Virus record (IMG/VR): IMGVR_UViG_3300009128_000003
Coordinates: 51,051-115,050 of that record
DNA length: 64,000 bases
Reading direction: 5' to 3' (one strand)
Origin: a virus
Shown here piece by piece: positions 15,552 to 31,436 of the stretch. The position numbers were made by a program, and so were the translations under genes. The notes beneath the pieces are model-generated. The model did no database searches. It was not told where the DNA came from and saw only the letters and a list, made by a program, of their open reading frames with translations. The first letter of the stretch is position 1; every line of letters starts with the position of its first letter.

Positions 15552-16368
15552 CGTTATAGATCTCCCCTACTAATTCTTGTGCTTTAAGCACGGTGAACAA
15601 CACTGCATCAGAGGGAGGCTCTTGCGCAAACTTGTTCAGCTTTTCGACTACTTGATTAGCCTTCTGTACCATTACTTCGTCATCTTTAAAGCACTCGGTC
15701 GCGGAGGCGCCCTCTAATTCTTGCTTAAGCCGCGCAATCTCTTCGTTAAGATACATTTTAAGCGCAAGAGAATTATCAACAAAAGACGAGATATAGGTGC
15801 TTAAAAGCTGCTGTTGCTCTTCGCGGAGACTCTCTCCGTACTTGTCATTAAACTTTGTGACAAACGTATTAAGGAGTAATTTATCAACTGGTTCGGGCTC
15901 TGTGTTGTCTGGTGCTGCCTGTGTCATGTTGGTGACGATTTCGTTTTCGAGCATGATTACACTCTTCGGATCAGTTTTGATATTAAAAATCTGATCGATG
16001 GTAGCTAAAGTTTTGTAATTGGGAACAAAATTGTTAAAGACCTTGGTGTCAATTTCTTTATTGACGTCATGAATCATTGCACTCTGAGCAGCGAAGAGTC
16101 CTGCAGGGTTTACAAGCATCTTTTGCATTTTGGCTTCGCGCAGGATCTTCTCGGATGTTTCTTTGGTTAGGTTTTGGTTCTCATATAATGAGCGGTAACA
16201 CTCTAAATCTTTTCTCAGAATGGTCTTGGCTCCAAAATGTTTCTTAATCACATTAACAACGCTCTGCTTTCGCTCGGCGTCTCCTTTGATTATCGACAAT
16301 GTAGCTTCTTTGATTAAGGCTTCATAAACAAAAGCGGTGTTTCTTTTTTTATTATGTTTTGTCTTCAT
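15535..16368 (-). CDS. Putative head / prohead-associated protein, 277 residues
   Basis: An alpha-helical protein with a basic N-terminus (KTKHNKKRNTAFVYEALIKE) and a mostly charged helical body including a long coiled-coil-prone segment at about 190-240. No recognised domain. It overlaps the portal stop (16352) and the next gene start by 16-17 bases, showing tight coupling to the portal. The position after the portal and before the protease corresponds to prohead core or portal-associated genes in T4-like phages. A role in prohead core assembly or portal binding is inferred from context only. Confidence 0.6.
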   Translation of the reverse strand: MKTKHNKKRNTAFVYEALIKEATLSIIKGDAERKQSVVNVIKKHFGAKTILRKDLECYRSLYENQNLTKETSEKILREAKMQKMLVNPAGLFAAQSAMIHDVNKEIDTKVFNNFVPNYKTLATIDQIFNIKTDPKSVIMLENEIVTNMTQAAPDNTEPEPVDKLLLNTFVTKFNDKYGESLREEQQQLLSTYISSFVDNSLALKMYLNEEIARLKQELEGASATECFKDDEVMVQKANQVVEKLNKFAQEPPSDAVLFTVLKAQELVGEIYNDGADD

Positions 16369-18387: not shown

Positions 18388-19971
18388 TCACTTAATAATC
18401 CATTTATACTGATCGTATAATTCTTTTGCTTCACCCATTTTATCAAAAATATTATCTTTTTTGTAGCCTTGTTGTCCGTTAATTTGAGTGTTCATAGAAG
18501 TCTTCGAAGTAACAATGGCATTCACAAAAGCTTTTTGATAGTTTAGGTCTCGTGCGTTTGATTGCAATGCTGTGTCCCTCACCCAGCAAGCAATCGCTAG
18601 CGCCATGATGAGATCATCATGATATCCTTTCATTGCCTGTGGTTTACCGTTCTTCCAAATAAAAGTTTTCATCTCATTAATTGTGCGAGATGAATATATC
18701 TTAATTAGTTTGTTTCTGATAAACTCCTCTAATTTCGCAACGATGAGCGGGCGCGTCTTCATTGAGGTTGTGAACCCGGCAACGGCAGAGTTTCTAACTT
18801 CTGCTTGATGTTGCTCTATATACTCATGTGTAGACTTAATAGAGTAGTACAAATTTGGATAACCGTGTTCAACGAGTTTATCGAGAACCGTGTAACCGAT
18901 GTTATTGTTCTCTACTACAAGCATCGCATTTCCAAATTCTCTCCCTACTTGATTCAAGAAGTTTGCATACATATCGGGCGTTGGCTTCCCTTGATACTCG
19001 CCCACGATTTCCAGCGTCTCTAATTTAATCATGTGTAATGTTGAATAGTCAGCGCCATCGCCTCGCGAAACATCTGCCACCGCAAGATAGTTACATGTGG
19101 GATCGAATTCTTCCCAAATCCAGAAATTGCGATCAAAGCCGGTTCTGTGCTTTGGCTCTTTAACATTTTCTAATAGCCACTTCATACAGTCAGGGTCTAT
19201 GACAGTCTCGCCAGAAGTATTGAAATTGCACTCAAGCTCTTGTGCAATCTGGCGTTTTGACATGTTCTTGGTTTCTTTCTTATACCAAGCTTCATCACGC
19301 TCGGGGTGAACGTCCCACTGGAGTGTTGTAAGGTTAAAGTTATTGCTGCCGCCTTCAGCATCCATACATGTTTTATGGAACCAGTTACCGACCCCGTTGG
19401 GCGTTGAAAGTGCTATGCATCGCCCACCAGTTGATAGTGTAGGATACAGACCGGTCCACAGTTCTTCAAGTCCTTCAATGTGTGCAGCCTCATCAAGAAC
19501 CAGCAAAGACAGTGCCTCAGAACGACCGGCATCACCAGAGGTAGACGCTGCTTTGATAGATGACCCATTAGAAAGCTCAAAGGAAGTCCGGTTATCCACG
19601 TCAATTGTGGCGATCTTAAGCCAATCTGGCAAGTTGCGCATAACGCCCTTGACCTTCTTTACTAAGTTGCCCGCTGTTGCAAATTTGGTCGCCATAACAA
19701 GAATTGATTTGTCACGGTGAAACAACATCAACCAAACAATATAGCCAGCAGTGATTGTTGAAATCCCTAACTGGCGCGCCTTTAAAATAACATTAAAGCG
19801 ATAATCATTAAAATCTTTAAGAAGGTCGTCTTGGAAATCATAAGTATCAAATAAAATAAGCCCATACATGGGATGGGAAATTCTTGCGTAAGTCTTTAAA
19901 AAATAAGCGGGTTCCTTCCCGCATTTAAGTATTTCTTTAACTTGTTGTTTTTTGTCTAATTGGAACGTCAT
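18388..19971 (-). CDS. Terminase large subunit, T4 gp17-like
   Basis: A 527-residue DNA-packaging motor with ATPase and nuclease halves. Visible motifs: an adenine-binding Q region near residue 47, Walker A KARQLGIST (about 64-72), Walker B LLVLDEAAH (D160-E161), coupling motif ALSTPNG (about 187-193), then nuclease motifs VADVSRGDGADYS (first catalytic Asp), LVVENNNIGY and YHDDLIMALAIA (last catalytic Asp). The motif order and length match gp17. It is 8 bases upstream of the portal gene and overlaps the stop of its own start region with the small tagged gene at 19968-20225. No small terminase subunit was recognised in the window. Confidence 0.95.
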   Translation of the reverse strand: MTFQLDKKQQVKEILKCGKEPAYFLKTYARISHPMYGLILFDTYDFQDDLLKDFNDYRFNVILKARQLGISTITAGYIVWLMLFHRDKSILVMATKFATAGNLVKKVKGVMRNLPDWLKIATIDVDNRTSFELSNGSSIKAASTSGDAGRSEALSLLVLDEAAHIEGLEELWTGLYPTLSTGGRCIALSTPNGVGNWFHKTCMDAEGGSNNFNLTTLQWDVHPERDEAWYKKETKNMSKRQIAQELECNFNTSGETVIDPDCMKWLLENVKEPKHRTGFDRNFWIWEEFDPTCNYLAVADVSRGDGADYSTLHMIKLETLEIVGEYQGKPTPDMYANFLNQVGREFGNAMLVVENNNIGYTVLDKLVEHGYPNLYYSIKSTHEYIEQHQAEVRNSAVAGFTTSMKTRPLIVAKLEEFIRNKLIKIYSSRTINEMKTFIWKNGKPQAMKGYHDDLIMALAIACWVRDTALQSNARDLNYQKAFVNAIVTSKTSMNTQINGQQGYKKDNIFDKMGEAKELYDQYKWIIK

Positions 19972-20225
19972 ACATCTTTCAATGCTGCTATAACTTCTTC
20001 GCGATTTGCAAGATCCCCTTCTCCGTCCAGAACAATCATTTCTTCCATTCCATCTACATGCATCATGTCGACAAGCTCAGCATCGGACATATCTTCGATT
20101 CCGTGGGGATCGAGGACATCATATGTCTCGTCTTCACCGCCCATATCATGATAATGACCCTCGCGCAAAACACTTGAGATCTCTTCTTTGATGATCTGCT
20201 TAAGGTATAATTTGGAGAATTTCAT
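19968..20225 (-). CDS. Small acidic protein with module-A N-terminal tag, 85 residues
   Basis: The protein starts MKFSKLYLKQIIKEEI, a variant of the MKITKSQLKQIIKEE module found in seven genes here. After the tag it is acidic and Asp/Glu/Met-rich (DMGGEDETYDVLD, MEEMIVLDGEGDL) with no recognised domain. It overlaps the terminase start by 4 bases (ATGA type) and follows an unrecognised 183-residue protein at 3-base spacing. A head-internal or packaging-accessory role is inferred from the tag and position; a small terminase role cannot be excluded but no DNA-binding motif is seen. Confidence 0.6.
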   Translation of the reverse strand: MKFSKLYLKQIIKEEISSVLREGHYHDMGGEDETYDVLDPHGIEDMSDAELVDMMHVDGMEEMIVLDGEGDLANREEVIAALKDV

Positions 20226-20228
20226 TGT

Positions 20229-20780
20229 CTATTCTTTCTTTCTTTTATCGTTGTCGGGGCGCTTGCCGCCTTCGCCATTCCAGCCACCAAGATCCAAAAA
20301 CTTTTTCCAGCTAGCCTCTACGGGATTGGTGGAGCCGCTGTTGTCGACGTTCATTTGCTCGGATAGACCACCAACGCGAAAGTGGAGCTTAGCCACAACC
20401 CATGAACGAACACGGGAAGAGTTCTCAACGCGCACATCAGCTTCGCCCTCTTTGGTCAGCTTGACTGATTCGCCAGTGATTCTCTTATACTCTTTCTTGA
20501 GCCATCCAGAAATATCAACAAGTCTTTGCTCAATCTCTTCTTCAAATCCGCCGGCATAAACCTCTCTGAGTTGAATATCGGACTGATATGTGAGACACAT
20601 CATGTCTCCGTAAAACTTCACGTTGAAGCCGTCCATGACCCTCTGATCGATAAGGGCGTTGCCCTCTTCTCTGCGCAGGGCGCCTACGGTTACTGGCGAC
20701 TGATCTTCTCCAAGCGCACCGTCATATGCGTTTGCTGCGGCTTGTGATAAGCCTTGAACTATTTCGTAAACTGTTGCCAT
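20229..20780 (-). CDS. Unrecognised protein upstream of terminase, 183 residues
   Basis: A soluble, mixed alpha/beta protein starting ATVYEIVQGLSQAAANAYDG and containing DGFNVKFYGDMMCLTYQSDI, a helical GWLKKEYKRITGES segment and a C-terminal charged tail (GKRPDNDKRKKE). I do not recognise a family. Its ATG overlaps the stop of the preceding tagged gene (TAATGG). Given its position just upstream of terminase and portal it may be a head, neck or packaging component. No signal peptide, membrane segment or catalytic motif is seen. Confidence 0.55.
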   Translation of the reverse strand: MATVYEIVQGLSQAAANAYDGALGEDQSPVTVGALRREEGNALIDQRVMDGFNVKFYGDMMCLTYQSDIQLREVYAGGFEEEIEQRLVDISGWLKKEYKRITGESVKLTKEGEADVRVENSSRVRSWVVAKLHFRVGGLSEQMNVDNSGSTNPVEASWKKFLDLGGWNGEGGKRPDNDKRKKE

Positions 20781-21085
20781 TATTGGGGTTCTCCTTGTGG
20801 TGCTGCGGCGGCAGCTCTTTGGTCTTTCTGAACAGCGGTCTTCACTTGTGTTAGTAGCGATGGATCGATGTCAAGCGTCTGCATCAAGCCTTTTAAAAAT
20901 TCTACTTGGGCGCTGCGGCTAACCTTCGATAGGCGCACACCCACCTGCTCGATAAACTTCTGCACTGCTTGGTTCTTGACGGTCGTCTTTGCAGAGCCGC
21001 CGAGGTCCGAGACGGCAGTTCCGATGTCGGACTCAGCAATTGCTTCTCTAATAATTTGTTTAAGTTGTGATTTATTGATTCTCAT
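20780..21085 (-). CDS. Small protein with module-A N-terminal tag, 101 residues
   Basis: Begins MRINKSQLKQIIREAIAES, one of the closest variants of module A. The body (AVSDLGGSAKTTVKNQAVQKF, then a helical RLSKVSRSAQVEFLKGLMQ) is helical with a Gln/Ala-rich end. No family recognised. The gene overlaps its upstream neighbour by 14 bases and its stop overlaps the start of the 183-residue gene. Candidate head-internal protein by tag. Confidence 0.6.
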   Translation of the reverse strand: MRINKSQLKQIIREAIAESDIGTAVSDLGGSAKTTVKNQAVQKFIEQVGVRLSKVSRSAQVEFLKGLMQTLDIDPSLLTQVKTAVQKDQRAAAAAPQGEPQ

Positions 21086-21458
21086 TTGGTCTCCAGCCTT
21101 TTTTCCATCTTTCTTCTCTATCTTCTACATATTCAATGTAACAATTATTGCAACAATCAAATTTTACAAGACAGACATCATCCATTGCACTCTTTGGAAA
21201 ATTTCCGCAGACAGGACAAGTTTTTAAAGATTCTCTATTAAGTAGTTTTTTTGTAACCTTTATCCCATTAACGTCGACTTTTTCTTCCCACTCTTTATTC
21301 TTAGAAGCGTGGCGATAGAGTTCTTTCATTTGCTGAAGATATTCTTTTTCTTTGGTCTCGTCCCAATCGGACCGAGGATTTTTAATGGCTTCTTCACCAT
21401 ATTTCGCAGCGATTGCGCGCTCAATGGCAGCTACCTCATTTAAATCTTTCTCACTCAT
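21072..21458 (-). CDS. Zinc-ribbon-like protein, 128 residues
   Basis: The start is taken at ATG 21458 (SEKDLNEVAAIERAI); the frame is open slightly farther upstream but that part overlaps the preceding gene end. The C-terminal half has CPVCGNFPKS, then DDVCLVKFDCCNNCYIEYVE, giving two C-x-x-C pairs about 25 residues apart, a plausible zinc ribbon, followed by a basic Trp-rich tail (DREERWKKGW). The N-terminal half is helical and charged. Zinc binding is inferred. It lies between the lysis cassette and tagged genes; role unknown. No nuclease motif was identified. Confidence 0.6.
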   Translation of the reverse strand: MSEKDLNEVAAIERAIAAKYGEEAIKNPRSDWDETKEKEYLQQMKELYRHASKNKEWEEKVDVNGIKVTKKLLNRESLKTCPVCGNFPKSAMDDVCLVKFDCCNNCYIEYVEDREERWKKGWRPNENQ

Positions 21459-21882
21459 TAAACACCTTATATGCACCGTAGCTTAGTGCTATTCCAGATG
21501 CTACCCCAATTGTCACCCAAAGTGCAGGATTTTTTTTACTTTGTTTTTTAAGAGCATTTGCTAGCGCACCACTCTCGCGTTCTAGCGAATCAATTCGTAA
21601 AACATATTCTTGCAAAAGGGCTTCGTGGCGAATCTGTAAGTTTTGTAATTGTAGATCATAGTCTGCTGCTTGTATATCCAGTTGATATTTCATCCTTATC
21701 TCGCAATCGTTATTTAAGGCAAACCGATCCGCAAGGATGTGAGCGGTTGCTTTTGGGTCGAACAGGACACCCTCGTATGGCGCGCATTGATTTTTCCCCA
21801 AAAAGGTAAACCTTCCGTTGTCGGCGCCGAGTGCCGGATTACTCAGCAGTGCGCTCAAAGCCATAAGTATTAACAATCTCAT
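21451..21882 (-). CDS. Exported coiled-coil protein with C-terminal membrane anchor, lysis cassette
   Basis: Residues 1-20 look like a cleavable signal peptide (LLILMALSALLSNPALGA then D); there is no lipobox Cys. The middle is a coiled coil (about 70-115, LQIRHEALLQEYVLRIDSL) and residues about 122-138 (ALWVTIGVASGIALSYGAY) form a membrane segment. It overlaps the i-spanin-like gene by 44 bases in another frame, the classic nesting of Rz/Rz1 pairs. A spanin-like role bridging membranes is plausible, but the topology (signal peptide plus C-terminal anchor) differs from canonical o-spanins, so it may be a periplasmic partner. Confidence 0.55.
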   Translation of the reverse strand: MRLLILMALSALLSNPALGADNGRFTFLGKNQCAPYEGVLFDPKATAHILADRFALNNDCEIRMKYQLDIQAADYDLQLQNLQIRHEALLQEYVLRIDSLERESGALANALKKQSKKNPALWVTIGVASGIALSYGAYKVFNE

Positions 21883-22225
21883 TGGCTAAATCCTCCGGGT
21901 TCGATGAATAGCTTTTCTCTAAACGATCTCTTTTCTGTTTTTTTAATCTTTCGACTTCTTCTTGAGATTCTAAATAGCCTCTTTCGATTTCTTCAAGAGT
22001 TGTACGGTAGCTCCTCAATGCCGCGTCTCGCTTCTTAAGTTCTTCCTCGTGAATCTTTTGTAAACCCTCTACTTGTTCTTGGAGGCTTTGTTGCGAAATC
22101 TCATACGCTTTATTAAGCGCACGATAATCAAGCTGTGTCTTAATTACAACTGCAAGGAGGGAGCCAACGACCAGCAGTTCTCGCCAGTACTTTAAACCAA
22201 ATTTAATTACTGCCGACCAATTCAC
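21839..22225 (-). CDS. i-spanin (Rz)-like membrane protein, 128 residues
   Basis: One N-terminal membrane segment (residues about 15-30, WRELLVVGSLLAVVIK) with a short cytoplasmic lead is followed by a long periplasmic coiled coil (about 38-108). This type II topology and length match Rz-type inner-membrane spanins. It begins at GTG 22225, overlapping the holin-like stop as GTGA, and overlaps the downstream exported protein gene. Together these form a compact lysis cassette. The identification is by topology and context, not by conserved sequence. Confidence 0.65.
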   Translation of the reverse strand: MNWSAVIKFGLKYWRELLVVGSLLAVVIKTQLDYRALNKAYEISQQSLQEQVEGLQKIHEEELKKRDAALRSYRTTLEEIERGYLESQEEVERLKKQKRDRLEKSYSSNPEDLANEIVNTYGFERTAE

Positions 22226-22419
22226 GCGACACCCTTAAGTTTAGCGATACCATCGATGACAGTTTGACCCCCAATGTAAATTGCTGAAATAATTACCCAG
22301 TCGCCCGACTGTAAGTCTGAAAATGCGAGGAGTCCTGTTGCGGTTAGCCATACAAGAAACTTCCGAGAAATCATTTTCTCGACTAATCTGTCTAGTTTGC
22401 CTTGTACATATTCCATCAT
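22222..22419 (-). CDS. Small holin-like membrane protein, 65 residues
   Basis: Two hydrophobic segments (about 20-35, FLVWLTATGLLAFSD, and 41-58, WVIISAIYIGGQTVIDG) are separated by a short polar turn, preceded by a charged N-terminus. Two adjacent Met codons follow GGAGACAAG; dual starts are a known regulatory feature of some holins, here only a possibility. It is followed by the Rz-like gene with a 4-base overlap. A holin that permeabilises the inner membrane is the best guess. No endolysin gene is recognised in the window. Confidence 0.6.
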   Translation of the reverse strand: MMEYVQGKLDRLVEKMISRKFLVWLTATGLLAFSDLQSGDWVIISAIYIGGQTVIDGIAKLKGVA

Positions 22420-22462
22420 CTTGTCTCCAATTATTAGCTTAAACTAAGCCTTCCTCTTCCGG

Positions 22463-23320
22463 TCATGCGTCTTCTTCCACTTTGGATGTACACATCTCTT
22501 CTGCCTCTGCTGCGGATAAGCTGTCTGCTCTTTCATCGGCGGGCTTGTCTTTTTGTGCGCAAGCCCAGCGGCGTTGCTTCTCGGAAGACACCTCTTCTAA
22601 GCCGTAATCTTGTTCAATATTTTCGCTAGCTGCGTCCATGAGTTGTGCCACCATATCGGCTAGTTGTTGTAATTCCTCTGGGTCTCCGGTGTCTAAGGCA
22701 GCTATTAATTTCATCAACTCTGTTCTTGTTGGTTCTGAGCGCTGGGCGATCCCTGCGCGAGAGAGAGTGCGAGCTACTGGAGCCATTCTGCCCGTACCTA
22801 GCGCCTCTGCGATCTCTTGTTCGATGATCTCGGCTAATTCCGCCGGCGGTTGAATCTTCTTCTTGCGGGCGGCTCTGCCAAACGCTGCCTGTCCATACCC
22901 AAGAGAGAGAGGATCTTCGCCGGTAACAGAAGCGGCTAAGTAATCAACACTAACATCTAAGTTATCAATCTTGTCTGCTAATTTATTGATCGCGCTTAAA
23001 AGGGCGGAATCGGTACTCATTTCTTCTTTGATTACTTTTATCAAGCTCTCTTCGAAGCCGATGCGCTCTGGTGCTCTATTGGATACTTCTTCAGGTTCCC
23101 TATCAAAGCCAATTTGTTGGGTCGCTTCCGGCTCTTCACTTGTTTCGGGTGGCGGACTGCCTCCCTCCATCTCCTTGAAGACAGTGGTGAAAACAACACC
23201 CACCAACTCCGGATCCATGCCGTCGACGAGACTGCTGATTCCGCCGATTAAATTCTCAATCGGAAGCGAGTCGATATTCTCTCGTATAATTTCTTTGAGT
23301 TGTGATTTTGTGATTTTCAT
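22463..23320 (-). CDS. Module-A tagged protein with Cys-rich C-terminal tag, 285 residues
   Basis: The open frame extends upstream, but ATG 23320 is the clear start because it gives MKITKSQLKEIIRENI, matching module A, and avoids overlap with the previous gene. The body is acidic and helical (SLVDGMDPELVGVVFTTVFK, LADKIDNLDVSVDYLAAS) with a second IKVIKEEM motif internally. The last 45 residues hold a distinctive two-Cys tail: RRWACAQKDKPADERAD and then SAAEAEEMC. I have an unsupported impression that such tails recur in marine phage virion proteins. No enzyme motif. Candidate internal head protein. Confidence 0.6.
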   Translation of the reverse strand: MKITKSQLKEIIRENIDSLPIENLIGGISSLVDGMDPELVGVVFTTVFKEMEGGSPPPETSEEPEATQQIGFDREPEEVSNRAPERIGFEESLIKVIKEEMSTDSALLSAINKLADKIDNLDVSVDYLAASVTGEDPLSLGYGQAAFGRAARKKKIQPPAELAEIIEQEIAEALGTGRMAPVARTLSRAGIAQRSEPTRTELMKLIAALDTGDPEELQQLADMVAQLMDAASENIEQDYGLEEVSSEKQRRWACAQKDKPADERADSLSAAEAEEMCTSKVEEDA

Positions 23321-23324
23321 GTTG

Positions 23325-23648
23325 TTAACCCATACCTTGCTTTTCAAATTTTGCAATCCAACGAAGGGCGTGACGTAGCTTATCTGATGGTTTGTTGCCG
23401 GGGAGGTCCGAATCCAGCAAGAAACTATGCAATTCGTAATAGGCATCGTAAGAAGCTTCTTGTTCTTCATCGGAGAGTGGTTCAATATCAATGGAGCCGC
23501 CAGTAAATCTTTCTTCTTCGGGCGGTGTGTGGACCGGGCGTTCCCATGCAGGAAGGCGCGCCTCCTCAATCTCTTCTTTAATAATATCAGTCTTCTCGTC
23601 CATAAAGTAACGAGGATCAATGAACTTCTTGTTTTTTCTAAATGCCAT
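23325..23648 (-). CDS. Module-C tagged protein (IDPRYFMDEK), 107 residues
   Basis: Starts AFRKNKKFIDPRYFMDEKTDIIKEE. The same segment IDPRYFMDEK-x-x-x-IKEE opens the protein at 31452-31964, 8 kb away, although the bodies are unrelated. The remainder is acidic (EPLSDEEQEASYDAYYELHS) and ends in a helical, basic segment (KLRHALRWIAKFEKQ). No recognised domain. It lies between two other tagged genes with 4- and 22-base gaps. Function unknown; a head-internal protein is inferred from the shared tag. Confidence 0.6.
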   Translation of the reverse strand: MAFRKNKKFIDPRYFMDEKTDIIKEEIEEARLPAWERPVHTPPEEERFTGGSIDIEPLSDEEQEASYDAYYELHSFLLDSDLPGNKPSDKLRHALRWIAKFEKQGMG

Positions 23649-23670
23649 TATATTATTCCTTTTATATTTA

Positions 23671-24135
23671 TTATCGGCTTGCTAAATCTTGTTCAGCACT
23701 ATCCATTTCATCCTTGTGGCGCTCAAGCCAACGCTCAGCTTCTTCATCAGAAAGATCATGAGTTAAACTCTTTAGCGCTTCCTTAGCACTTAGTCCTGTT
23801 TTCATCATCTTTTTAACGACGTGAGAGGCTGAATGTGGTTCAGCTGCTTCATTCATTTCTTGTCGGCTTGCTAACTCTTTGTACATCTCTTCTGTGTCGT
23901 TATACATTGACAATTTGCCGTCTTGGTGCTTTACTATAATAGAAGGCTTTCCATCGCTAGCAATCTCAACGAAGGCTTCGACATTAAACTTGTCAGCCAA
24001 GTCTTGTACCTCTTCGTCCCTAATTTCTTCGGGGCTCATGTAATCTTCGCCAGTATCAATATCGGCAACAGCACGACCGGGTTCGTATGCTGCTTCGTTT
24101 GTGTACTTTCGCCAATTTTCAAATAGTTTGTTCAT
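23671..24135 (-). CDS. Module-B tagged protein (ENWRKY), 154 residues
   Basis: ATG 24135 overlaps the tubulin-like stop (ATGA) and gives MNKLFENWRKYTNEA, closely matching the start of the ParB-like gene at 25296-26321 (MKLLMENWRKFVNEQ). The frame is open upstream but that would run into the preceding gene. The body is acidic, with DLADKFNVEAFVEIASDGKP and KPSIIVKHQDG, and a helical C-terminal part (VVKKMMKTGLSAKEALKSL, then DEEAERWLERHKDEMD). No family recognised. The translational overlap makes it a partner of the tubulin-like gene in expression. Confidence 0.6.
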   Translation of the reverse strand: MNKLFENWRKYTNEAAYEPGRAVADIDTGEDYMSPEEIRDEEVQDLADKFNVEAFVEIASDGKPSIIVKHQDGKLSMYNDTEEMYKELASRQEMNEAAEPHSASHVVKKMMKTGLSAKEALKSLTHDLSDEEAERWLERHKDEMDSAEQDLASR

Positions 24136-25280
24136 GTTGCTAATCCATTCATACTTAGTATCGCAATCAATCCGGGCACATTCTTGCGCACGTAAACGCC
24201 AGAGAAAAGTGTCTCGCACCGACCGCCGACATAAGCGATTGCAGACTCAATGTTTTTACTGACCTTTGGGTCAGCCACCATCTCTTCCGAGACCACCAAC
24301 ACTAACGAACCGGCGCCTGCCTTCCCCTTGGGGGGCGGACACGCAGAACGATTCATACAGTTATGAAGGATCACCGATCCAAGCTTTGCTGTATTTGGAT
24401 CTTTTATCATTGTTGAGCCCATAAAGGCTCTGCCATTATTGCTCAAGCAAGTTTCCAAATCTTTAGAATCGAAAGATTGGATCGGTGAATCCTCGGTGGA
24501 GAGTTTTAAAACTTGAGCAAGTGACTTAGCAAATGTTGTGTTAGCGACAGGATACATGCCAAGCATGCCGATTCTGCCGCGGAGTAATCGTGTGGCACGT
24601 TCGTTGTCGAGAACGATGTGCGGATGGCGGGCAACGTCATTCACGAGCGTAAGCGCGTTGCGAGCGATAGTCGGGTTCAGTGCCTCTTGCGCGGTTGGCC
24701 AAGAAACAATATAGACCACTTTTCCAGAAGCCTGAACTGATTGCATATATCTTTCGAAGACTGGCTGCAGCGCGGTTACCGAACTGCCGGTTCCGCCGCC
24801 TCCACCAGCCATAACGAAAAGCCAATCGACTTTTCCAAGCTTAATACGAAGTGCATCTTCAACGATGGCGCCATTTTGGGAAAGAATCTCTTTGCCGTAA
24901 ACGACGTTCTTTCCGATGCCGTCGCTATCGGGGATAAGAACGACGTGATCTTCTTCGACGTTCTTCGGAATGTCTTTCCCTGTGGAGTTTACCATCAGTG
25001 TTTTGTTGAATCCAAGTTCAATGAAGGCGTTCGCCATTTTGTTGCCTCCGCCGCCAACGCCAACAAAGCCCACATTAATCGAAGAAGGGGCAGTGTTTTC
25101 TGGGAGGAGATCTTCATCAGAATATTCCATCTGGAGACCGAAGTCCTCAACCATGCCGAAATCCTCTGCTGCGACTTCTTCGTGATAGTGGTCTTTCTCC
25201 TGATTAAAGGAGGGTGGTGGCTCTGCGGGAGGCAGAAAATCAAATTCGTTTTTGTCATCTTTATTTTCGTTATCAGACAT
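24132..25280 (-). CDS. FtsZ/tubulin-superfamily GTPase
   Basis: A 382-residue protein with the tubulin/FtsZ GTP-binding signatures: GVGGGGNKMANAF (T1 loop, about 74-86), NSTGKD (about 98-103), MAGGGGGTGSS (T4 glycine loop, about 157-167) and FDSKDLETCLSNNGRAFMG (T7 region, D271 and D274), matching FtsZ in order and spacing. The T7 D-x-x-D supplies the catalytic acid to the neighbouring subunit in filaments. Residues 1-65 are an acidic, Pro-rich extension. PhuZ of jumbo phages and TubZ of phages are known relatives; this one looks more FtsZ-like by eye. It could centre DNA or replication structures, or disturb host FtsZ (inference). AGGAAT precedes the start. Confidence 0.88.
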   Translation of the reverse strand: MSDNENKDDKNEFDFLPPAEPPPSFNQEKDHYHEEVAAEDFGMVEDFGLQMEYSDEDLLPENTAPSSINVGFVGVGGGGNKMANAFIELGFNKTLMVNSTGKDIPKNVEEDHVVLIPDSDGIGKNVVYGKEILSQNGAIVEDALRIKLGKVDWLFVMAGGGGGTGSSVTALQPVFERYMQSVQASGKVVYIVSWPTAQEALNPTIARNALTLVNDVARHPHIVLDNERATRLLRGRIGMLGMYPVANTTFAKSLAQVLKLSTEDSPIQSFDSKDLETCLSNNGRAFMGSTMIKDPNTAKLGSVILHNCMNRSACPPPKGKAGAGSLVLVVSEEMVADPKVSKNIESAIAYVGGRCETLFSGVYVRKNVPGLIAILSMNGLAT

Positions 25281-25295
25281 TGTTTATTCCTTATT

Positions 25296-26321
25296 TTACT
25301 GGTTTTCGTCTTCGGGATTGGGACCCTTTTGCTGGCGACCAAGTGCGTTCCCTACCGTAACCAAAAGAGGGATGACTGCATCGGCTGGCGCCTTAACAAT
25401 ATGAACGCCGGTATGCTGAAGTGCACCACCGGTACCGATAAGGGCGCCTGACCAACGATGGTGACCGTCGAGAATCTTTCCATCACTAGTGACAAAGGCT
25501 CCGCCCATATCTTTGAGTTGTTTTGCTGGATTGTTGTATGCAAATAATAGTGACTTAGCTGCCAAAATATTACTTTGCGTTGGAATCATTTTTGAGTTTG
25601 TGGCGCCGGCGTCTTTTTCAACGGCTACAGCGTCACCCGGCGCGCCGTCGAGCATCCCTTTGGTTAAGAACGCCAATGCGGCGCCCTTAATATTTTTAAG
25701 ATTGATTTGTTCTTTTTCTCCAACAGCGGGGGCGCCGGGCATTGGACCTTTTCCAAATCGTGGAAACTTGTCTTCACTGACGTTTTGTTGGGGGGTCTGT
25801 TGGGTTGCTTGCTGTACTTGTTCTACAGATGGGATCTTCCCTGCTTCGTACATCTGTTTAATCGGCTCGGGTAGTGCCTCCCACCACTCTTTAAAGCTTT
25901 CGATTTGGTTCGCAAATTTCGAACTTAGATCAACTCCCAAGGCGCCATCTTGATCGCTTAGTGCATCTACTACTGCATCGGCGTCTCCGCCCTCCAGAGC
26001 AGGCATATTAAATTTAGCTGTTTTTGCTGTAGAGATCAGTTTTTGAACTTGTTGAACTCTCGCTATGAAGGCTTCTTGTCCAATCTGCCCAAACCTTTGT
26101 TTAACTTGTTCTGGGGTGCCCAAGACGCCGCTTGCCCAGCCAGTGGCATTTTTCATCGCATTATAGAGCGGACTCTCCTGTCCGGACACAAGCTGCCTCC
26201 AGAGTTCATCAGCCTTGACGGCTCCAATATTAGTATCGGGAGTTATTTGGGCAAATCCTTGTTGTGCGGCTTCTTCTTGTTCATTAACAAATTTACGCCA
26301 GTTTTCCATTAAAAGTTTCAC
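25296..26321 (-). CDS. Module-B tagged protein with ParB-like domain, 341 residues
   Basis: Starts at GTG 26321 (overlapping GTGA with the preceding gene) as MKLLMENWRKFVNEQ. A helical middle (VQQATQQTPQQN linker near 185) is followed by a domain at about 225-325 containing IPTQSNILAAKSL, KILDGHHRWSGALI and a terminal hydrophobic strand. D-G-H-H-R-W is the hallmark of ParB/sulfiredoxin-fold domains, where this box binds nucleotide (CTP in ParB) or catalyses DNA cleavage. The biochemical activity here is unknown. It sits directly before the tubulin-like gene, so a tubulin-ParB-like pairing is notable, but the tag suggests packaging in the head. Confidence 0.6.
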   Translation of the reverse strand: MKLLMENWRKFVNEQEEAAQQGFAQITPDTNIGAVKADELWRQLVSGQESPLYNAMKNATGWASGVLGTPEQVKQRFGQIGQEAFIARVQQVQKLISTAKTAKFNMPALEGGDADAVVDALSDQDGALGVDLSSKFANQIESFKEWWEALPEPIKQMYEAGKIPSVEQVQQATQQTPQQNVSEDKFPRFGKGPMPGAPAVGEKEQINLKNIKGAALAFLTKGMLDGAPGDAVAVEKDAGATNSKMIPTQSNILAAKSLLFAYNNPAKQLKDMGGAFVTSDGKILDGHHRWSGALIGTGGALQHTGVHIVKAPADAVIPLLVTVGNALGRQQKGPNPEDENQ

Positions 26322-26848
26322 TGTTTTTTATCTCCTTGAATCTCTTGTAGCACTTCTCTAATAATGTCCTTAATCTTCTCTATGGATTCGCCGTAAGCAA
26401 GGTTAGATGAACCAACAGCGCTGGATGCGCGATGGGCAGGGGATTTATCACGTCGATACGACGACGACGATGACGACGATCTTCCAGAGCCGCGCTTCTT
26501 CCTGGCTTGCTCAATATCCCATTGAGCCTGTCGATGTTGTTCGGAGTCAGCTACATGCTTGGTTCTCCATTTTAAGAAGTCCTGGTAAGCCTCATATGAA
26601 CTCGTATCGTCGAAGTTCTGTCCTCGGGCATCTTCCCACTTGAATTGACCGGCGGCGCCTCCACTACGAAATTCTTCATAGTCTTCGCGCTCATCTTCTG
26701 GGACATTTGCCATTGGATCGGCTGCTGGGGCTGCTTTCTTGCCGCCAAGACCGAGGGCGCCCTTGATAGAGTCCACAAAACCCTCATCGACGGTGTTTTC
26801 TATTTCTTCTCTGATTACGCTTCGAAGCTGCGATTTGGTAATTTTCAT
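26318..26848 (-). CDS. Module-A tagged protein, 176 residues
   Basis: Starts MKITKSQLRSVIREEIENT, a module-A variant. Glycine-rich and charged middle parts (IKGALGLGGKKAAP, DEREDYEEFRSGGAAG) are followed by a Ser/Arg-rich stretch (RGSGRSSSSSSSYRRD) and a C-terminal helix IEKIKDIIREVLQEI, which resembles the tag itself. No domain recognised. It overlaps the next gene start by 4 bases and follows the SbcCD-like gene by 12 bases. Candidate DNA-associated internal head protein. Confidence 0.6.
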   Translation of the reverse strand: MKITKSQLRSVIREEIENTVDEGFVDSIKGALGLGGKKAAPAADPMANVPEDEREDYEEFRSGGAAGQFKWEDARGQNFDDTSSYEAYQDFLKWRTKHVADSEQHRQAQWDIEQARKKRGSGRSSSSSSSYRRDKSPAHRASSAVGSSNLAYGESIEKIKDIIREVLQEIQGDKKQ

Positions 26849-26860
26849 GCTGTTGACTCC

Positions 26861-29800
26861 TTATTGGTTTACTCTTGCATATCCATTTTTCTTTTCAATT
26901 ACAATTTGCATGTCAACACAGTCTTTGAGCGAATCAAGGTGCGAGATCAACAAAACGTTCTTAAAATACACTTTAATTAGTTCTAAGATCCTAATAAAAC
27001 CTTCCATATTTTCTTCATCTAATGCTGTGCCGGGCTCGTCGAGGATGAATAAGTCGCTTTTGGGCAGTGAAGAGACACTCAGAAGAGCCAAACGAATTGC
27101 CATCGCCGCCATGGTTTTCTCTGCGCCAGACGCCATTTCAATAGGGCGCTCGTCGTATAGAGGGTGCTTGATAAAGATGTCAAACTTATTACCAGAACTC
27201 TCAAAGAAAATTTCAAAATCTACAATATTTGCCAACACCTTCGCTATCTCTTGATTGATAACAGGAATCTTCTTTTTAATCACATCGTATGCAATTCCGT
27301 TTGGGTGCATGCACTGCATAAACAGATCGTAGGCTGCATATGAGTTCTGTAGTTCTTTGTATTCAGTTTGTTGCTCTCGCAAGTTTTCAATCTTTTGTTC
27401 GCAAGAACCAACGAGTTTAACGATATCTAAAGTCTCTTGTTCGCAAGTCGTTATCTCATTCTGCTTACTGTTCATGTCTTTTTGGTGCTTATCTTTTTCC
27501 TTTATAAGTTTCTCAAGATTCTCAATTGCTTCTTTATTTTCTTCGTATTCCTTAATTTGATTAGTAATATCTTTCAAAGATAATTCTATCTTAGATTTTG
27601 TAGCCTTGTTGCGCTCTCGCTTAAGCTTCAACTCAGAAATCTCTTTTTCAAAATTTAAAGACTTTATTTGTAAAGCGTTGTGTTCTTCAATCTCCAACTC
27701 GATTTCTTCGGGATTTAATGCGCTGCGGGCTTCTATGGACTTATCGCGCTCGTTAGCTGCAATATCCCTTGTGGCAACTGAGACGTGTGCATCTCTAATA
27801 AACTTGCACGTTGGGAACGAATCACCGCACGGGATTCCCTCTAGCAGCTTCTGTTTCTTAACGATACTCTCTAGTTCTTGATTTAACGAGGCAATCGTTT
27901 CATCTAATTTCTCAATCGACAACTTATTCTCAAGGTTCTTCTGGTGATCTATCGCGCCGAGTAGCTTCTCGGTTGCCGCGATTTCCTCGCTCTTGAGAGA
28001 TATGAACTGCGATTGTTCTTTGATTGTTTCGCCCAAAGCAACAATAGAATTAACTTTCTTTTTGTGCTCTTTGCGCAAGTTAGTAATGTCCACCACTTCC
28101 GAGGGAGTCGCTTTGATTTGTTCTTCCAATAAGCGCACAACATCCGTCAATGTATTAAGCTTAATACGCAAGGATTCACAGAGGCTCTTGTTCTTCTCTG
28201 ATTTGTTCTGATACTTATTCAACTCCTTCGTGGCGGCGGTGATGTCTGCCCCATAGTCTCGGTCTTCGTGCTTCTTAATCAAGACTTTGGCTTCTACCGA
28301 GTCTTCCTTGGACATCCTAAACTTCTTTTCAAAAATCTCCAGGTCCAAGAACTTAGCAATGATCTCTTTACGTCGAGTAGAGCCCTCATCAATAAATGCT
28401 AACGCACCATGCTGCGAGGCTAGCGAAGATACCATGAAATCATCGATAGAACCAAAATGCTTTCTGATAATTGCATCTGTCTGATTTCGCGTTGTTCCGT
28501 TCAGAGATGTTGTTTCTTCGGTGATGCGATCATATACTTCAAAATTCAAATCGGTTTTGGCTTCTAGGGTTTCCTCGCCCTTAAGCCTCTTAACGTACTT
28601 CTCTGATTTCCTTTCAACCGTATAGACCTTATTGTTTGACTCGATAGTGAGCTTGCCTGCGCATGAATCTCTGTTCTGATTAATGACGTTTAAGTTTTTG
28701 CGTTCGTTCTTGGACGTCGTATTAAACAAAGTATATAATGCAGCATCAATCACAGAACTCTTTCCGGAAAAGTTCTTTCCAAAGATGCCGATGATACCAC
28801 CCATATTTTCAAAATTAATTGAATTGTCTGTTCCATAATTAAACAGATTGTCAAACTCAAAGGTCTTAAGTTTCCAGTTTACATTGCGCGAGACTTCCTC
28901 TGTCTCCTCAATAATTTTGTTGTAAGCCCGATTGAGTTCATAAACTTTTTCGAGCGTCTCAGAGGGCACCTGATAGTCCTTAAGGTACTCATCGATAAGT
29001 TCTTCCTGAATCTTTGGATCTCGCAAGTTCTCGGTCTTGAGTCCGTCTGTAATATCTTCAACATTTCCGCGTTCACCGGTGGCTCTGTTCAAAAACGAGA
29101 TGCTCTCCGGTTTGAATCGGTGTTTGGCGATATCCATTGCGCGCTTCATCACATTGAGCGGAAGATTGTTGTTGCTCACCAAGCGCAGACGAGCGCCGGT
29201 TGGCACATCAATCTTGCGTGGCATGCGCCCCTTCATCGTTAAAGGAATTGTAAAGAATGGCTTTGGATTCTTAAGCACAATGGGCTCGATTTCCCAATCA
29301 TCCTTTGACTGGATATCCCAGATGAGAATCCCCTTATCATTTGTTTCGCCATGATTCTGCTGTACAGTTGAGCCGGCATACCAAACGCGACCTACTTCAT
29401 CTAAATATTGACGACGGTGAATATCGCCGAGCATGGCGAAATCAAAGTCTTCAAAGATAGTTAGAGTATCTTCGCCATTTCTCATTGTCCAGTTCATGTC
29501 AGTCTTACAGTTGCTGATTGAGCCGTGATACAGGGCGATGTTGATTTTATCAGTATCGCTTGGCTTTGTCCAATTATCTCGATCAAAGACTGAAAGCACA
29601 TTCAAACAGAACTTATCGTCTATGTGGGTTTCGCCAGATTCTTTGAGCAGATGCAGAGCTGGCAAGTTTAACGCATCTACAATCGGCGTCAATGCGTCTT
29701 GGCGACTACTATTCTTTAGATTGCCATCGTGGTTGCCCAATATAATATATGTGGGTGCAATCTCCGCTAAACTGCGGAAGAAATCAGAACACATTTCCAC

Positions 29801-29968
29801 AAACTCTGGTGAGATCTGTGTCTTTGTGTGTGCGATATCTCCGCAATGAACGATGTAATCGACTTCCTGCTCTCGCAGTGTCTGGTATAATTGTTCGAAT
29901 ACAATTCTATATTCGTAGTGATACTTCAAATTTTTGATATGAGTGTCACTGATGTGTGCAAACTTCAA
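26861..29968 (-). CDS. Fused SbcD-SbcC (T4 gp47-gp46-like) recombination nuclease
   Basis: Start chosen at TTG 29968, which follows GGAGG at 5 bases and gives MKFAHISDTHIKN, the usual SbcD opening; the frame is open to 29986. The N-terminal 240 residues have metallophosphoesterase motifs (HISDTH, HCGDIAH, LGNHDGN, YHGSI, LGDIHRRQY). The rest is SbcC/Rad50-like: Walker A GIFGKNFSGKSS (about 394-405), long coiled coils, a possible zinc hook CGDSFPTC near 712-719 with six residues between the Cys, signature MASGAEK and Walker B DLFILDEPGTALDEE. In most phages these are two proteins. The fused enzyme should resect DNA ends in recombination-dependent replication. It has its own sigma70-like promoter. 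Confidence 0.92.
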   Translation of the reverse strand: MKFAHISDTHIKNLKYHYEYRIVFEQLYQTLREQEVDYIVHCGDIAHTKTQISPEFVEMCSDFFRSLAEIAPTYIILGNHDGNLKNSSRQDALTPIVDALNLPALHLLKESGETHIDDKFCLNVLSVFDRDNWTKPSDTDKINIALYHGSISNCKTDMNWTMRNGEDTLTIFEDFDFAMLGDIHRRQYLDEVGRVWYAGSTVQQNHGETNDKGILIWDIQSKDDWEIEPIVLKNPKPFFTIPLTMKGRMPRKIDVPTGARLRLVSNNNLPLNVMKRAMDIAKHRFKPESISFLNRATGERGNVEDITDGLKTENLRDPKIQEELIDEYLKDYQVPSETLEKVYELNRAYNKIIEETEEVSRNVNWKLKTFEFDNLFNYGTDNSINFENMGGIIGIFGKNFSGKSSVIDAALYTLFNTTSKNERKNLNVINQNRDSCAGKLTIESNNKVYTVERKSEKYVKRLKGEETLEAKTDLNFEVYDRITEETTSLNGTTRNQTDAIIRKHFGSIDDFMVSSLASQHGALAFIDEGSTRRKEIIAKFLDLEIFEKKFRMSKEDSVEAKVLIKKHEDRDYGADITAATKELNKYQNKSEKNKSLCESLRIKLNTLTDVVRLLEEQIKATPSEVVDITNLRKEHKKKVNSIVALGETIKEQSQFISLKSEEIAATEKLLGAIDHQKNLENKLSIEKLDETIASLNQELESIVKKQKLLEGIPCGDSFPTCKFIRDAHVSVATRDIAANERDKSIEARSALNPEEIELEIEEHNALQIKSLNFEKEISELKLKRERNKATKSKIELSLKDITNQIKEYEENKEAIENLEKLIKEKDKHQKDMNSKQNEITTCEQETLDIVKLVGSCEQKIENLREQQTEYKELQNSYAAYDLFMQCMHPNGIAYDVIKKKIPVINQEIAKVLANIVDFEIFFESSGNKFDIFIKHPLYDERPIEMASGAEKTMAAMAIRLALLSVSSLPKSDLFILDEPGTALDEENMEGFIRILELIKVYFKNVLLISHLDSLKDCVDMQIVIEKKNGYARVNQ

Positions 29969-29990
29969 ACTTCCCTCCGAGCACAAATGT

Positions 29991-30033
29991 GCCTCTACTA
30001 TACAAGTATATCTTGTTCAGTAGAGGCTGTCAA
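29991..30033 (-). promoter_or_regulatory. Sigma70-like promoter embedded in a 37-bp palindrome
   Basis: On the minus strand TTGACA (30033-30028) is followed after 17 bases by TATACT (30010-30005), a near-perfect sigma70 promoter. The bases 29991-30027 form a palindrome: outer arms GCCTCTACT and AGTAGAGGC (9 bases) and inner arms ACAAG and CTTGT around ATATA. The -10 box lies in its centre and the expected start point falls in the distal arm. It lies 23 bases or more before the SbcCD-like start and after the stop of the upstream gene. The symmetry suggests a repressor operator. Confidence 0.8.
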
Positions 30034-30049
30034 GTATTTTTTTGTGCCA

Positions 30050-30388
30050 TTACTCAGAGGGCATATCGCCCATAAAATAATCACTTAACAGTTCCATGCT
30101 GTATATTACCTGATCTAACTCTTGAGAAAGCTCTGACGCTACTGGATCGCCTTGTTGTTGAAGGTAAAGCTTTGCGTCGTTAATTCTCGCCAGCATATGA
30201 TTGTGGTTAAGTTTGCGTTGTGATCGTTGTGTAAGAGGAGGCTCGCCAGTATCGTCGCGAGAAGGCTCGTCAGACTGCTCATAATCATCGTGAGTGATCA
30301 TGGAGTCATCGAAAGGCTTTTTCACGACGCCTTCATTGGCGACCTCTTCCGCGATAATCTTACGCAATTGTTCTTTTGTAATCTTCAT
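30050..30388 (-). CDS. Module-A tagged protein, 112 residues
   Basis: Starts MKITKEQLRKIIAEEVANE, close to the module-A consensus. The body is polar and charged (SMITHDDYEQSDEPSRDDTG) with a helical second half (KLNHNHMLARINDAKLYLQQ). I do not recognise a domain. The start overlaps the stop of the preceding tagged gene (30385-31299). Unknown function; the tag suggests targeting with other members of the set. Confidence 0.6.
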   Translation of the reverse strand: MKITKEQLRKIIAEEVANEGVVKKPFDDSMITHDDYEQSDEPSRDDTGEPPLTQRSQRKLNHNHMLARINDAKLYLQQQGDPVASELSQELDQVIYSMELLSDYFMGDMPSE

Positions 30389-31299
30389 TTCTTTTTGTCC
30401 TTTGCCATCTTGCGGAATGTTTTGGCTAGATTATATCTCTTCGTTCCCGGCTTGCAAGTAGGTCCGCCAAACTTATCGCCGGTGCAGACACCTTCTGTGC
30501 CGCTCTTTTCAATATCTTTTTCTGCATCTTGGATCCAATCATCCTTTTCTTCTGAGGGGGCTTCTTGCATCTTTTTCTCCTCCAGTGCGGCTTCGACTTC
30601 CTCTTTAACGATCTTCAGCATGTGTTCTCTATATGTTGATTTAAGTCCGCGCATATTACTAAGGAATCCCGATTTGATCTCTTTTTTAAGCCTATCTCTA
30701 ATCCCGGGTGGTACCGGGCGATCTAAACCATATTCAATCGCGAATCGCAATTTTAATGCTTGTTCTCTGAGCACTTTTCGGGGTTCGTCGTAGTTGTCGA
30801 AGCCATCTATATACATGTCAACTGGCATCCTCTCGTACGGTCCTCCGCGAGTGGCGCCGGATACAAGCTCATCTCCTAGTGAGCCAACCTTCTTAATTAT
30901 ACGCTCGACTGCATCGTTTGTATGCCTTAAGACTTCAGAATGCCCAGATCCTCGACCTTCAGTCACTGGCTCTGATTCGGCACCTTTTACATGCTTGGCG
31001 TATTCTCTAGTAATATCAGCCAACTCCTTAAGGGCACCTTGTTCTCGGATGGGTAACCCATAAACAGTTGTGTTCTGAAAGTGTTCTGACTTCTTCTGCA
31101 CCATAAGGTTTGACAACTCAAACATTTGTTGTAGGGTTCGGGCTATTTCATTTAGCTCGTCTCTAGCGTCTCTGTGTTTGACTTTCTGAGTGTCGTCGTC
31201 TCTGCGCGCATCCATGCCGGCAAGCCGGGCTTCAAGATCCTCTATCGAACTTAGCTCTTCTTTGATGATTTGTTTAAGCTGCGTTTTTGTGATCTTCAT
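30385..31299 (-). CDS. Module-A tagged protein with basic Cys tail, 304 residues
   Basis: ATG 31299 gives MKITKTQLKQIIKEELSS, the module-A consensus, and overlaps the microgene stop as ATGA; the longer upstream frame would overlap that gene. The body is helical and charged (DELNEIARTLQQMFELSN, YVDMYI-like segments near residue 200). The C-terminal tail has GTEGVCTGDKFGGPTCKPG then KRYNLAKTFRKMAKDKKK: a paired-Cys, strongly basic end. An internal LKIVKEEVEAALEE repeats the tag style. No enzyme motif. Candidate internal head protein with a DNA-binding tail (inference). Confidence 0.62.
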   Translation of the reverse strand: MKITKTQLKQIIKEELSSIEDLEARLAGMDARRDDDTQKVKHRDARDELNEIARTLQQMFELSNLMVQKKSEHFQNTTVYGLPIREQGALKELADITREYAKHVKGAESEPVTEGRGSGHSEVLRHTNDAVERIIKKVGSLGDELVSGATRGGPYERMPVDMYIDGFDNYDEPRKVLREQALKLRFAIEYGLDRPVPPGIRDRLKKEIKSGFLSNMRGLKSTYREHMLKIVKEEVEAALEEKKMQEAPSEEKDDWIQDAEKDIEKSGTEGVCTGDKFGGPTCKPGTKRYNLAKTFRKMAKDKKK

Positions 31300-31436
31300 C
31301 TTCCTTTCCACCACTTTGTCTTTTTCTTCTCCGGAGAACATTTGCTTCCCGAGGGGCACCATTTGTATATGTTGGACAAATAATTACTAAGCTCTTCTTC
31401 GATAATATCTTTAAGTCGGGATTTGGTGATTTTCAC
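31296..31436 (-). CDS. 46-residue microprotein consisting mainly of module A
   Basis: A short frame from GTG 31436 to TGA 31296 encodes a protein starting MKITKSRLKDIIEEELSNY (GTG start read as Met), followed by a short Cys- and Lys-rich tail (KWCPSGSKCSPEKKK, then WWKGR). The tag is obvious and in frame, AAGGA lies 8 bases before the GTG, and the stop overlaps the next tagged gene as ATGA, so coupling is intact. It is below usual ORF-length cut-offs. It shows the tag can stand almost alone with a small basic cargo. Confidence 0.7.
   Translation of the reverse strand: MKITKSRLKDIIEEELSNYLSNIYKWCPSGSKCSPEKKKTKWWKGR

Follow-up and report, generated by a model that had tools for sequence, protein, structure and literature searches.

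A portable N-terminal module on unrelated proteins of T4-type phages as a probable capsid-targeting propeptide

The window analysed here, the whole 64,000-nucleotide stretch at positions 51051-115050 of the 115,050-base virus record IMGVR_UViG_3300009128_000003 (IMG/VR), carries on its minus strand a block of genes at 19968-31436, directly upstream of the terminase gene, in which seven proteins open with a common N-terminal module of 16-22 residues. All seven were found on the minus strand where the original prediction, made from the sequence alone, had placed them, and their N-termini read M-K-I-T-K-x-x-L-[KR]-x-I-I-x-E-x-[LIV] or a close variant, starting with GTG in the open reading frame (ORF) at 31436 and with ATG in the other six. 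A 16-column scoring matrix built from the seven themselves was used to scan all six frames of the whole record; the seven modules score 44-51 bits, against 18.1 for the best place elsewhere and maxima of 13.2-19.6 in three shuffled controls, and because the matrix was made from the seven, the informative points are the gap in score and the absence of other sites. Pairwise identity among the seven is 8-12 of 16 residues in the module and 0-4 of 16 in the 16 residues after residue 20, and a blastp comparison of the seven bodies with each other gave a best E of 0.21, so that the bodies are, as predicted, unrelated. The same prediction had most of the modules containing I-x-E; [LI]-x-E ends at residue 14 in all seven. 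Chance similarity was considered and rejected on the record-wide score gap and on the absence of matches both in 36 random viral loci (280,543 bases) and in the 36 whole records that contain them, a control that is not length-matched, 3 of the 36 records being longer than 60 kb.

The seven carriers, A1 to A7, all lie on the minus strand. A1 (19968..20225, 85 residues) opens with MKFSKLYLKQIIKEEISSVLRE followed by GHYH and contains the sites IIKE (E14) and VLRE (E22); A2 (20780..21085, 101 residues) reads MRINKSQLKQIIRE, then AIAE, then SDIG; and A5 (30050..30388, 112 residues) opens with MKITKEQLRKIIAEEVANEG. The bodies of these three are free of [LI]xE. A3 (22463..23320, 285 residues) has the tag MKITKSQLKEIIREN and, internally, a degenerate tag (FEESLIKVIKEE followed by MSTDSALL) that coincides with the start of free-standing carriers in other phages (MKITKSQLKQIIKEE followed by LSSDSALL); from its sequence it looks like a fusion of carriers, and its structure model, a poor one with a mean predicted local distance difference test (pLDDT) score of 61, places helices at residues 5-18 and 89-103. 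A4 (26318..26848, 176 residues) opens with MKITKSQLRSVIREEIENTVDEG and has a module-like C-terminus, IKDIIREVLQE. A6 (30385..31299, 304 residues) opens with MKITKTQLKQIIKEELSS, and A7 (31296..31436, 46 residues, the GTG-started ORF) with VKITKSRLKDIIEEELSNYLSNIYKWCPSGSKC; an A7-like body also follows a tag in other records (L027:2269, L031:2571). The original prediction had overlooked the module-like site within A3 and two further genes in the block that carry a second class of tag (class B, discussed below). A Pfam scan of the nine tag genes of the window found no family above the cut-off, and the best match of the seven module proteins to PHROGs had an E of 0.013.

The block adjoins a set of head genes, ordered on the minus strand as terminase, portal, small genes, protease, further genes, probable scaffold and major capsid protein. 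The large terminase subunit (18388..19971) matches PHROG 2 (E 7.6e-55) and the T4-type portal protein (16352..18379) PHROG 213 (E 9.4e-72), while the minus-strand ORF at 13083..13709 matches, over residues 10-183, PHROG 207 (head maturation protease, E 2.8e-57) and is the gp21-type prohead protease that the original prediction had reported nearby. The major capsid protein (439..2244, minus strand) has two stretches 51% and 43% identical to the annotated Gp23 of Flavobacterium phage immuto, whose head genes follow this order with a smaller number of genes separating protease from scaffold, and in which Gp20, protease and Gp23 are annotated; among the matches listed from the open-access literature, no paper names this phage. 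The acidic product of 2276..3421 (minus strand) is, from its position, a probable core or scaffold protein, its C-terminal 110 residues being 35% identical to the gene before Gp23 in immuto, and its body holds 14 [LI]xE where 9.1 are expected. The putative maturation site of the window capsid protein, NQAKELLRE/SSS, aligns with NQAKQIVSE/ANV of immuto Gp23; a capsid protein was found in 22 module-bearing records, L-[RK]-E/[SAQ] being kept in all 22, and giant records have NQASQVLRE/ANS. By analogy with T4, we infer that this is a cleaved maturation site.

The module extends well beyond this record. Degenerate-DNA patterns were scanned three times against IMG/VR and once against a 257-billion-base collection of bacterial and archaeal genomes, and the resulting carrier totals are lower bounds, with retrieval biased to the patterns used. 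The first IMG/VR scan returned at least 120 stretches. After removal of truncated ORFs, of carriers shorter than 45 residues and of entries repeating the same first 50 residues, at least 780 carriers remain from 235 loci. They have 765 distinct ORF ends, as 15 of them lie in frame within another carrier, and window carriers A4-A7 enter once each through the near-identical records L075 and L102. Restricted to scores above 30 and lengths of at least 70 residues, at least 701 carriers (from 689 distinct ORF ends) fall by their bodies into at least 516 clusters, 421 of them single-member. A profile of 80 tags found 1 to 41 copies in each of 33 long records (the window's own and the 32 that reached 64 kb in the first scan), 10 in the uncultured 484 kb phage LR756508, a single marginal match in Microcystis phage Mel-JY01 and none in T4 (E<=0.01) or Rhodothermus phage RM378. 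In phage immuto (vB_FspM_immuto, MW353176) it found one variant, gene immuto35A_190 (MKKSQLRQIIKEALDAS), some 5 kb upstream of the terminase gene. A tblastn search of named phages with 20- and 45-residue tag queries and carrier A3 returned only LR756508 (E 0.7), a weak negative given the low-complexity filter and the short queries. The tag was not found described in the open-access literature searched, a search made only partly by sequence letters and no proof of absence. Host origin was rejected, the 257-billion-base collection yielding no more than 8 stretches with the pattern, which come from five metagenome-assembled genomes. Two such genomes, searched whole, gave 22 and 27 matches, which among the matches listed sit on one contig each and so probably mark phage contigs binned as bacteria. 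The two contigs are L335 (NHDW01000006.1, contig G034:C5, 305,838 bases) and L333 (PBIO01000025.1, contig G033:C25, 101,404 bases).

Across 299 carriers, L8 and E14 are each conserved in 99% and I12 in 97%, and no information above background is left beyond about residue 22; conservation in columns 1-16 is inflated, because similarity was the basis on which these carriers were selected. Placement is mostly that of a protein start. Of the 335 matches above 30 bits, 332 have M, V or L as their first residue, and the distance to the preceding stop is up to 30 codons for 299, 31-60 for 21 and more than 60 for 15. [LI]xE occurs within residues 10-26 in 98.5% of 741 carriers, a figure likewise inflated by selection, and the share with [IL]xE at 12-14 is 53% of 30 carriers scoring 18-26 bits, 74% of 58 at 26-34 and 97% of 657 at 34-60 (35 more carriers score above 60). 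At the DNA level, all synonymous codons are used at I3, T4, L8, I11 and I12, and tags on unrelated bodies resemble each other from the start codon to codon 15-20, with identity at background on either side (upstream, before -15) apart from the ribosome-binding region. Varied codons and an identity bounded in this way point to selection mainly on the peptide.

The same observations bear on two readings in which the peptide itself does nothing for its protein. The common start could be a translation signal, recruiting ribosomes or coupling translation, as the original prediction had allowed; the module does begin at the start codon, 205 of the 299 carriers have a Shine-Dalgarno-like word within 20 bases upstream, and identical codons are more frequent in the module (0.60 within and 0.53 between loci) than in the bodies (0.41 and 0.36). 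All synonymous codons nevertheless occur at the conserved residues tabulated, the upstream DNA is at background past the ribosome-binding region, copies of the tag occur in mid-protein, and the relative avoidance of L-x-E in the bodies, described below, would go unexplained, which leaves this reading barely credible. The module could also be a recombination target or selfish cassette that spreads itself without function for the cargo, in keeping with its very wide spread on unrelated genes and the many carriers found close together. This is highly improbable given that the similarity in DNA runs only from the start codon to codon 15-20 and that conservation is at the level of residues, mobile-element features not having been searched for.

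The preferred reading, which is given a probability of roughly 0.85, is that the tag is a capsid-targeting propeptide that brings about loading into the head and exposure to the protease. During head assembly, following the T4 model, a short predicted N-terminal helix, M-K-I-T-K-x-Q-L-[KR]-x-I-I-x-E-E, would bind the prohead core and carry its protein into the prohead, where the gp21-type protease would cut after L/I-x-E, either at residue 14 or at a second site near 20-22. The cut would release mature cargo inside the head, where it would stay with the DNA. The tag is portable, being found on hundreds of unrelated small proteins within and between genomes, and its repeats inside mosaic proteins would separate cargo domains. 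Core binding, loading and cutting are what we infer, and less certainly a later ejection into the host. Three lines of evidence support the original capsid-loading proposal: the company of head genes, a positioned second [LI]xE in about half of the carriers and, as the strongest, the relative avoidance of the motif in their bodies.

Gene company was assessed in the 33 long module-bearing records, 26 of which have a T4-type portal and 24 a gp21-type protease, all 24 within the 26. In one of the other two (G029), the portal is cut by the contig end; the second (G005) is taken up below. The seven records lacking both portal and protease have no terminase match in six cases and a marginal one in the seventh, and are therefore probably fragments. 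In the 36 random records, mostly short, the module was absent and the protease present in one. The tag lives with T4-type heads, and passages of PMC9026906 describe the gp21-type protease as acting in prohead maturation.

The second line is a further L/I-x-E just past the module, near residues 20-22, in about half of the carriers, which resembles the conserved LLRE/S of the capsid proteins in these phages. Outside the columns by which carriers were selected, a second [LI]xE starts at residue 20 in 64 of 288 carriers (4.2 expected) and at residue 19 in 37 of 288 (4.1 expected). Where the second site takes its 20-22 form ([LIM]xE), it is followed by G, A or S in 35 of 76 cases; a larger set of 314 second sites has G, A or S behind the motif in 37%, compared with 23% in bodies, and Q is raised there too, to 12% from 4%. 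Presence of the second site also varies with residue 15, at 311 of 579 carriers with E15 against 18 of 93 with A or S15 (Fisher p 3e-10), a contrast that would suit the idea that one good site is enough.

The third line follows from the proposal itself, since stray L/I-x-E in a body that meets the protease should be selected against. Counting one protein per body cluster, the ratio of observed [LI].E to that expected from composition is 0.89 (95% interval 0.82-0.97) in 516 carriers against 1.19 (1.13-1.25) in 717 neighbours, and two separately retrieved carrier sets gave 0.85 (0.74-0.97) and 0.91 (0.81-1.00). Control motifs of equal composition or close to the motif stand, in carriers, at 1.29 for E.[LI], 1.34 for [LI].D, 1.34 for [LI].Q and 1.08 for [VM].E. 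In an unguided scan of 1,511 combinations of residue pair and spacing, L.E ranked first for depletion in carriers relative to non-carriers, with z -5.87 against -3.66 for the next pair and a spread of 1.24. Given without intervals, the R9 subset has L.E at 0.81 and I.E at 1.04, only L.E falling, and the K9 subset has 0.88 for both. Avoidance is a trend of the population relative to neighbours, 60% of carrier representatives still keeping at least one [LI]xE after residue 26 and 39.9% having none where 32.1% would be expected. As a small positive control, T4 internal proteins IPI, IPII and IPIII have one [LI]xE each, in the N-terminal region, and their mature parts have 0 against 2.8 expected.

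Alongside this class A tag stands the second class found in the block, typically M-K-[LK]-L-x-E-N-W-[RKN]-x-[FYH]-[LIV]-x-E, which was found on 36 distinct proteins from 26 sources, both window genes included. These are B1 (23671..24135, minus strand, 154 residues, ATG at 24135), opening with MNKLFENWRKYTNEAAYEPG, and B2 (25296..26321, minus strand, 341 residues, GTG at 26321), opening with VKLLMENWRKFVNEQEEA and counted under the near-identical locus L102; both tags contain ENWRKxxNE, and ENWRKFLNE is an example of the class. The class B tag probably does the same job as class A in the same phages, an assignment that rests on resemblance and company because its bodies, as a set, show little avoidance. 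In phage immuto, genes immuto35A_193 and immuto35A_194 (L337:11999-13299), directly upstream of the terminase, have a common N-terminus, F-N/D-L-x-x-F-L-x-E-N-K-L-T-x-N-x-x-L/I-L-K-E, perhaps a third tag class; the body of immuto35A_193 holds five more [LI]xE.

Copies of the tag also occur inside carriers. By a strict definition there are 12 rows (11 distinct sites) in 80,499 body residues of carriers against 4 in 420,242 residues of non-carriers, one of these four being a class B protein, and the shuffles gave 0 and 0.2. Carriers moreover share small domains in differing combinations. Internal tags, reshuffled domains and the degenerate tag of A3 together suggest polyproteins that are cut into parts. 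Tag-like stretches were also noticed elsewhere. The minus-strand gene at 10188-10637 contains, from an internal ATG, the loosely tag-like stretch MKKKDLKELMKPMVKECIHELLIEEG and is a candidate core or cargo protein; two non-carriers of 275-276 residues (L026:2672 and L038:7130), by eye relatives of the gene after the portal (15535-16368 in the window), have a tag-like helix, LK.F.NEEI..LI.E, near the C-terminus.

Several observations weigh against a capsid-targeting propeptide or limit what its evidence can carry. The amphipathicity of the consensus is not significant (p 0.21), and the residue after the first site (P1') is E in 248 of 288 carriers, where T4 IPII and IPIII have A. The raised frequency of identical codons in the module reflects some constraint at the DNA level or recent common descent. 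Passages of PMC7824862 report identical phyletic patterns for portal and protease in two jumbo-phage groups, so that the company of these two genes is one fact and not two. In record G005, a T4-type portal and a single weak module were found with no protease of the PHROG 207-type family at the profile threshold and none in the 16 kb read; the record is either a real exception or the bearer of a divergent protease. There (L376) the portal lies beside genes that by eye look like DNA polymerase III parts, one apparently interrupted, in a different genome arrangement. Carriers with a residue other than E, A or S at position 15 also seldom have a second site (14% of 51), which does not fit the idea of one sufficient site and points to a clade effect that may lie behind the contrast at that position, so that no weight is put on it. 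In absolute terms L.E lies outside the 12 most depleted pairs, which makes the signal a relative one, and class B bodies hold 70 [LI]xE against 76.1 expected. Within the window, the bodies of A3 (5 against 4.8), A6 (5 against 3.4, with no avoidance) and A4 (2 against 1.0) are at or above expectation, single proteins being too small for the test.

Two further points of this kind would suit a module that addresses another phage structure, such as the tail, a membrane or a replication compartment, or that acts as a helix for interactions in general, with no link to head proteolysis. Several giant records, of 240-290 kb, have tags far from the head genes among the matches listed, and a few carriers match families that are not necessarily head cargo (baseplate hub and tail lysozyme, which bear on this reading, and deoxyribonucleotidase). 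What points instead to the prohead protease is I-x-E within the tag, together with the second, positioned L/I-x-E and the bodies' relative avoidance of the motif, and the other destinations are improbable.

Assuming entry into the prohead, a separate matter is what the tagged proteins do there. They could be structural parts of the core or scaffold, shaping the head or binding DNA, and not effectors for the next host. The tag genes of the window adjoin terminase, portal and protease; domains are few, Pfam at E<=0.001 finding 16 families with one member each in 140 carriers and 3 in 110; some cargo is by eye lysine-rich and could bind DNA; and according to passages of PMC9026906, T4 IPIII affects head morphogenesis. 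Set against this, the carrier sets vary strongly between records, as the 421 single-member clusters among 516 attest, unlike conserved core proteins, and some family matches would suit delivery: acetyltransferase, transglycosylase, pentapeptide-repeat and ribosome-modulation-factor for class A (not assigned to individual carriers), and, for class B, Zeta toxin and DUF2608 in two of the nine proteins scanned, with one sub-threshold AAA. A structural role for the cargo therefore keeps a substantial minority chance. Ejection of most of it into the host, to act there, is somewhat favoured on the analogy of IPI (passages of PMC3012670) and on a few suggestive domains, and the original suggestion of effectors delivered with the DNA is plausible.

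Other genes of the window deserve mention in their own right, all on the minus strand. Among the tag genes of this phage with a T4-type head lies one for a tubulin/FtsZ GTPase-domain protein (24132-25280; Pfam Tubulin, 1.4e-8), and 26861-29986 encodes a 1,041-residue protein with a calcineurin-like phosphoesterase and an SbcC-like ATPase, an apparent SbcD-SbcC fusion. An FKBP-type prolyl isomerase (6.4e-22) with an additional C-terminal part is encoded at 33005-33559, and an ORF of 3,734 residues occupies 48455-59659.

Large uncultivated phages encode mostly proteins without a known function, and the tag marks those probably belonging to the virion interior. If it is a loading signal, hundreds of protein families nearly devoid of recognizable domains could be assigned to that interior, and their members would probably act in the first minutes of infection, the stage of anti-defence and host-takeover proteins. 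A broader view, for which the odds look about even, is that large T4-like phages share a loading code of one or two interchangeable tags, with a head that takes up to about forty cargo proteins, mosaic polyproteins in which internal tags serve as handles and cutting points, and an arsenal built by domain shuffling; avoidance of L-x-E would then reveal virion cargo from sequence. A loading signal would also make new tags available for protein delivery by phage heads. To our knowledge, the tag families and the scale on which they occur are new, as are the second site, the internal copies and the footprint of avoidance.

The closest known counterpart is the T4 capsid targeting sequence (CTS) of IPI, IPII and IPIII (Mullaney and Black 1996, as cited in passages of PMC9024508 and PMC10052503), likewise a short N-terminal peptide with L/I-x-E on otherwise unrelated internal proteins. 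According to passages of PMC3012670, the internal proteins of T-even phages are highly diverse and have a conserved CTS in common, and passages of PMC9026906 suggest that it may be the route by which T4-like phages take up various proteins; in T4 IPIII, according to the latter, only the first ten residues are needed, residues 4 and 7 for targeting and 8 and 10 for processing. The present tag differs in having about double the length and often a further cleavage-like site, in reaching 41 copies per record, in occurring inside proteins as well and in coexisting with a second tag class. The T4 sequence, MKTYQEFIAEA, has no detectable sequence relation to the module and is by eye like class B only in its FxxE end; with no module match in T4, the tag is an analogue of the T4 CTS and not a shown homologue. 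If the propeptide reading is true, the T4 sequence would be one instance of a widespread device and not a T-even feature. An N-terminal packaging signal is also described for DarB of phage P1, whose N-terminal 30 residues send a reporter to the capsid (passages of PMC9024508); the likeness is one of description, and in P1 the signal was demonstrated for a single large anti-restriction protein. In the giant phages phiKZ and SPN3US, passages of PMC10052503 and PMC9026906 report that a gp21-like protease cuts the propeptides off head proteins behind a short x-x-E. The motif there takes the form S/A-x-E or A-x-E, most of the SPN3US propeptides are long, and those passages describe no common sequence on unrelated cargo. 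Polyvalent proteins, finally, are multidomain proteins thought to be injected by phages with their DNA and include ART and GNAT domains (reference 100 in PMC7824862, from its passages); here, by comparison, small domains are strung together behind what is probably a head-loading tag, with tag-like sites between them.

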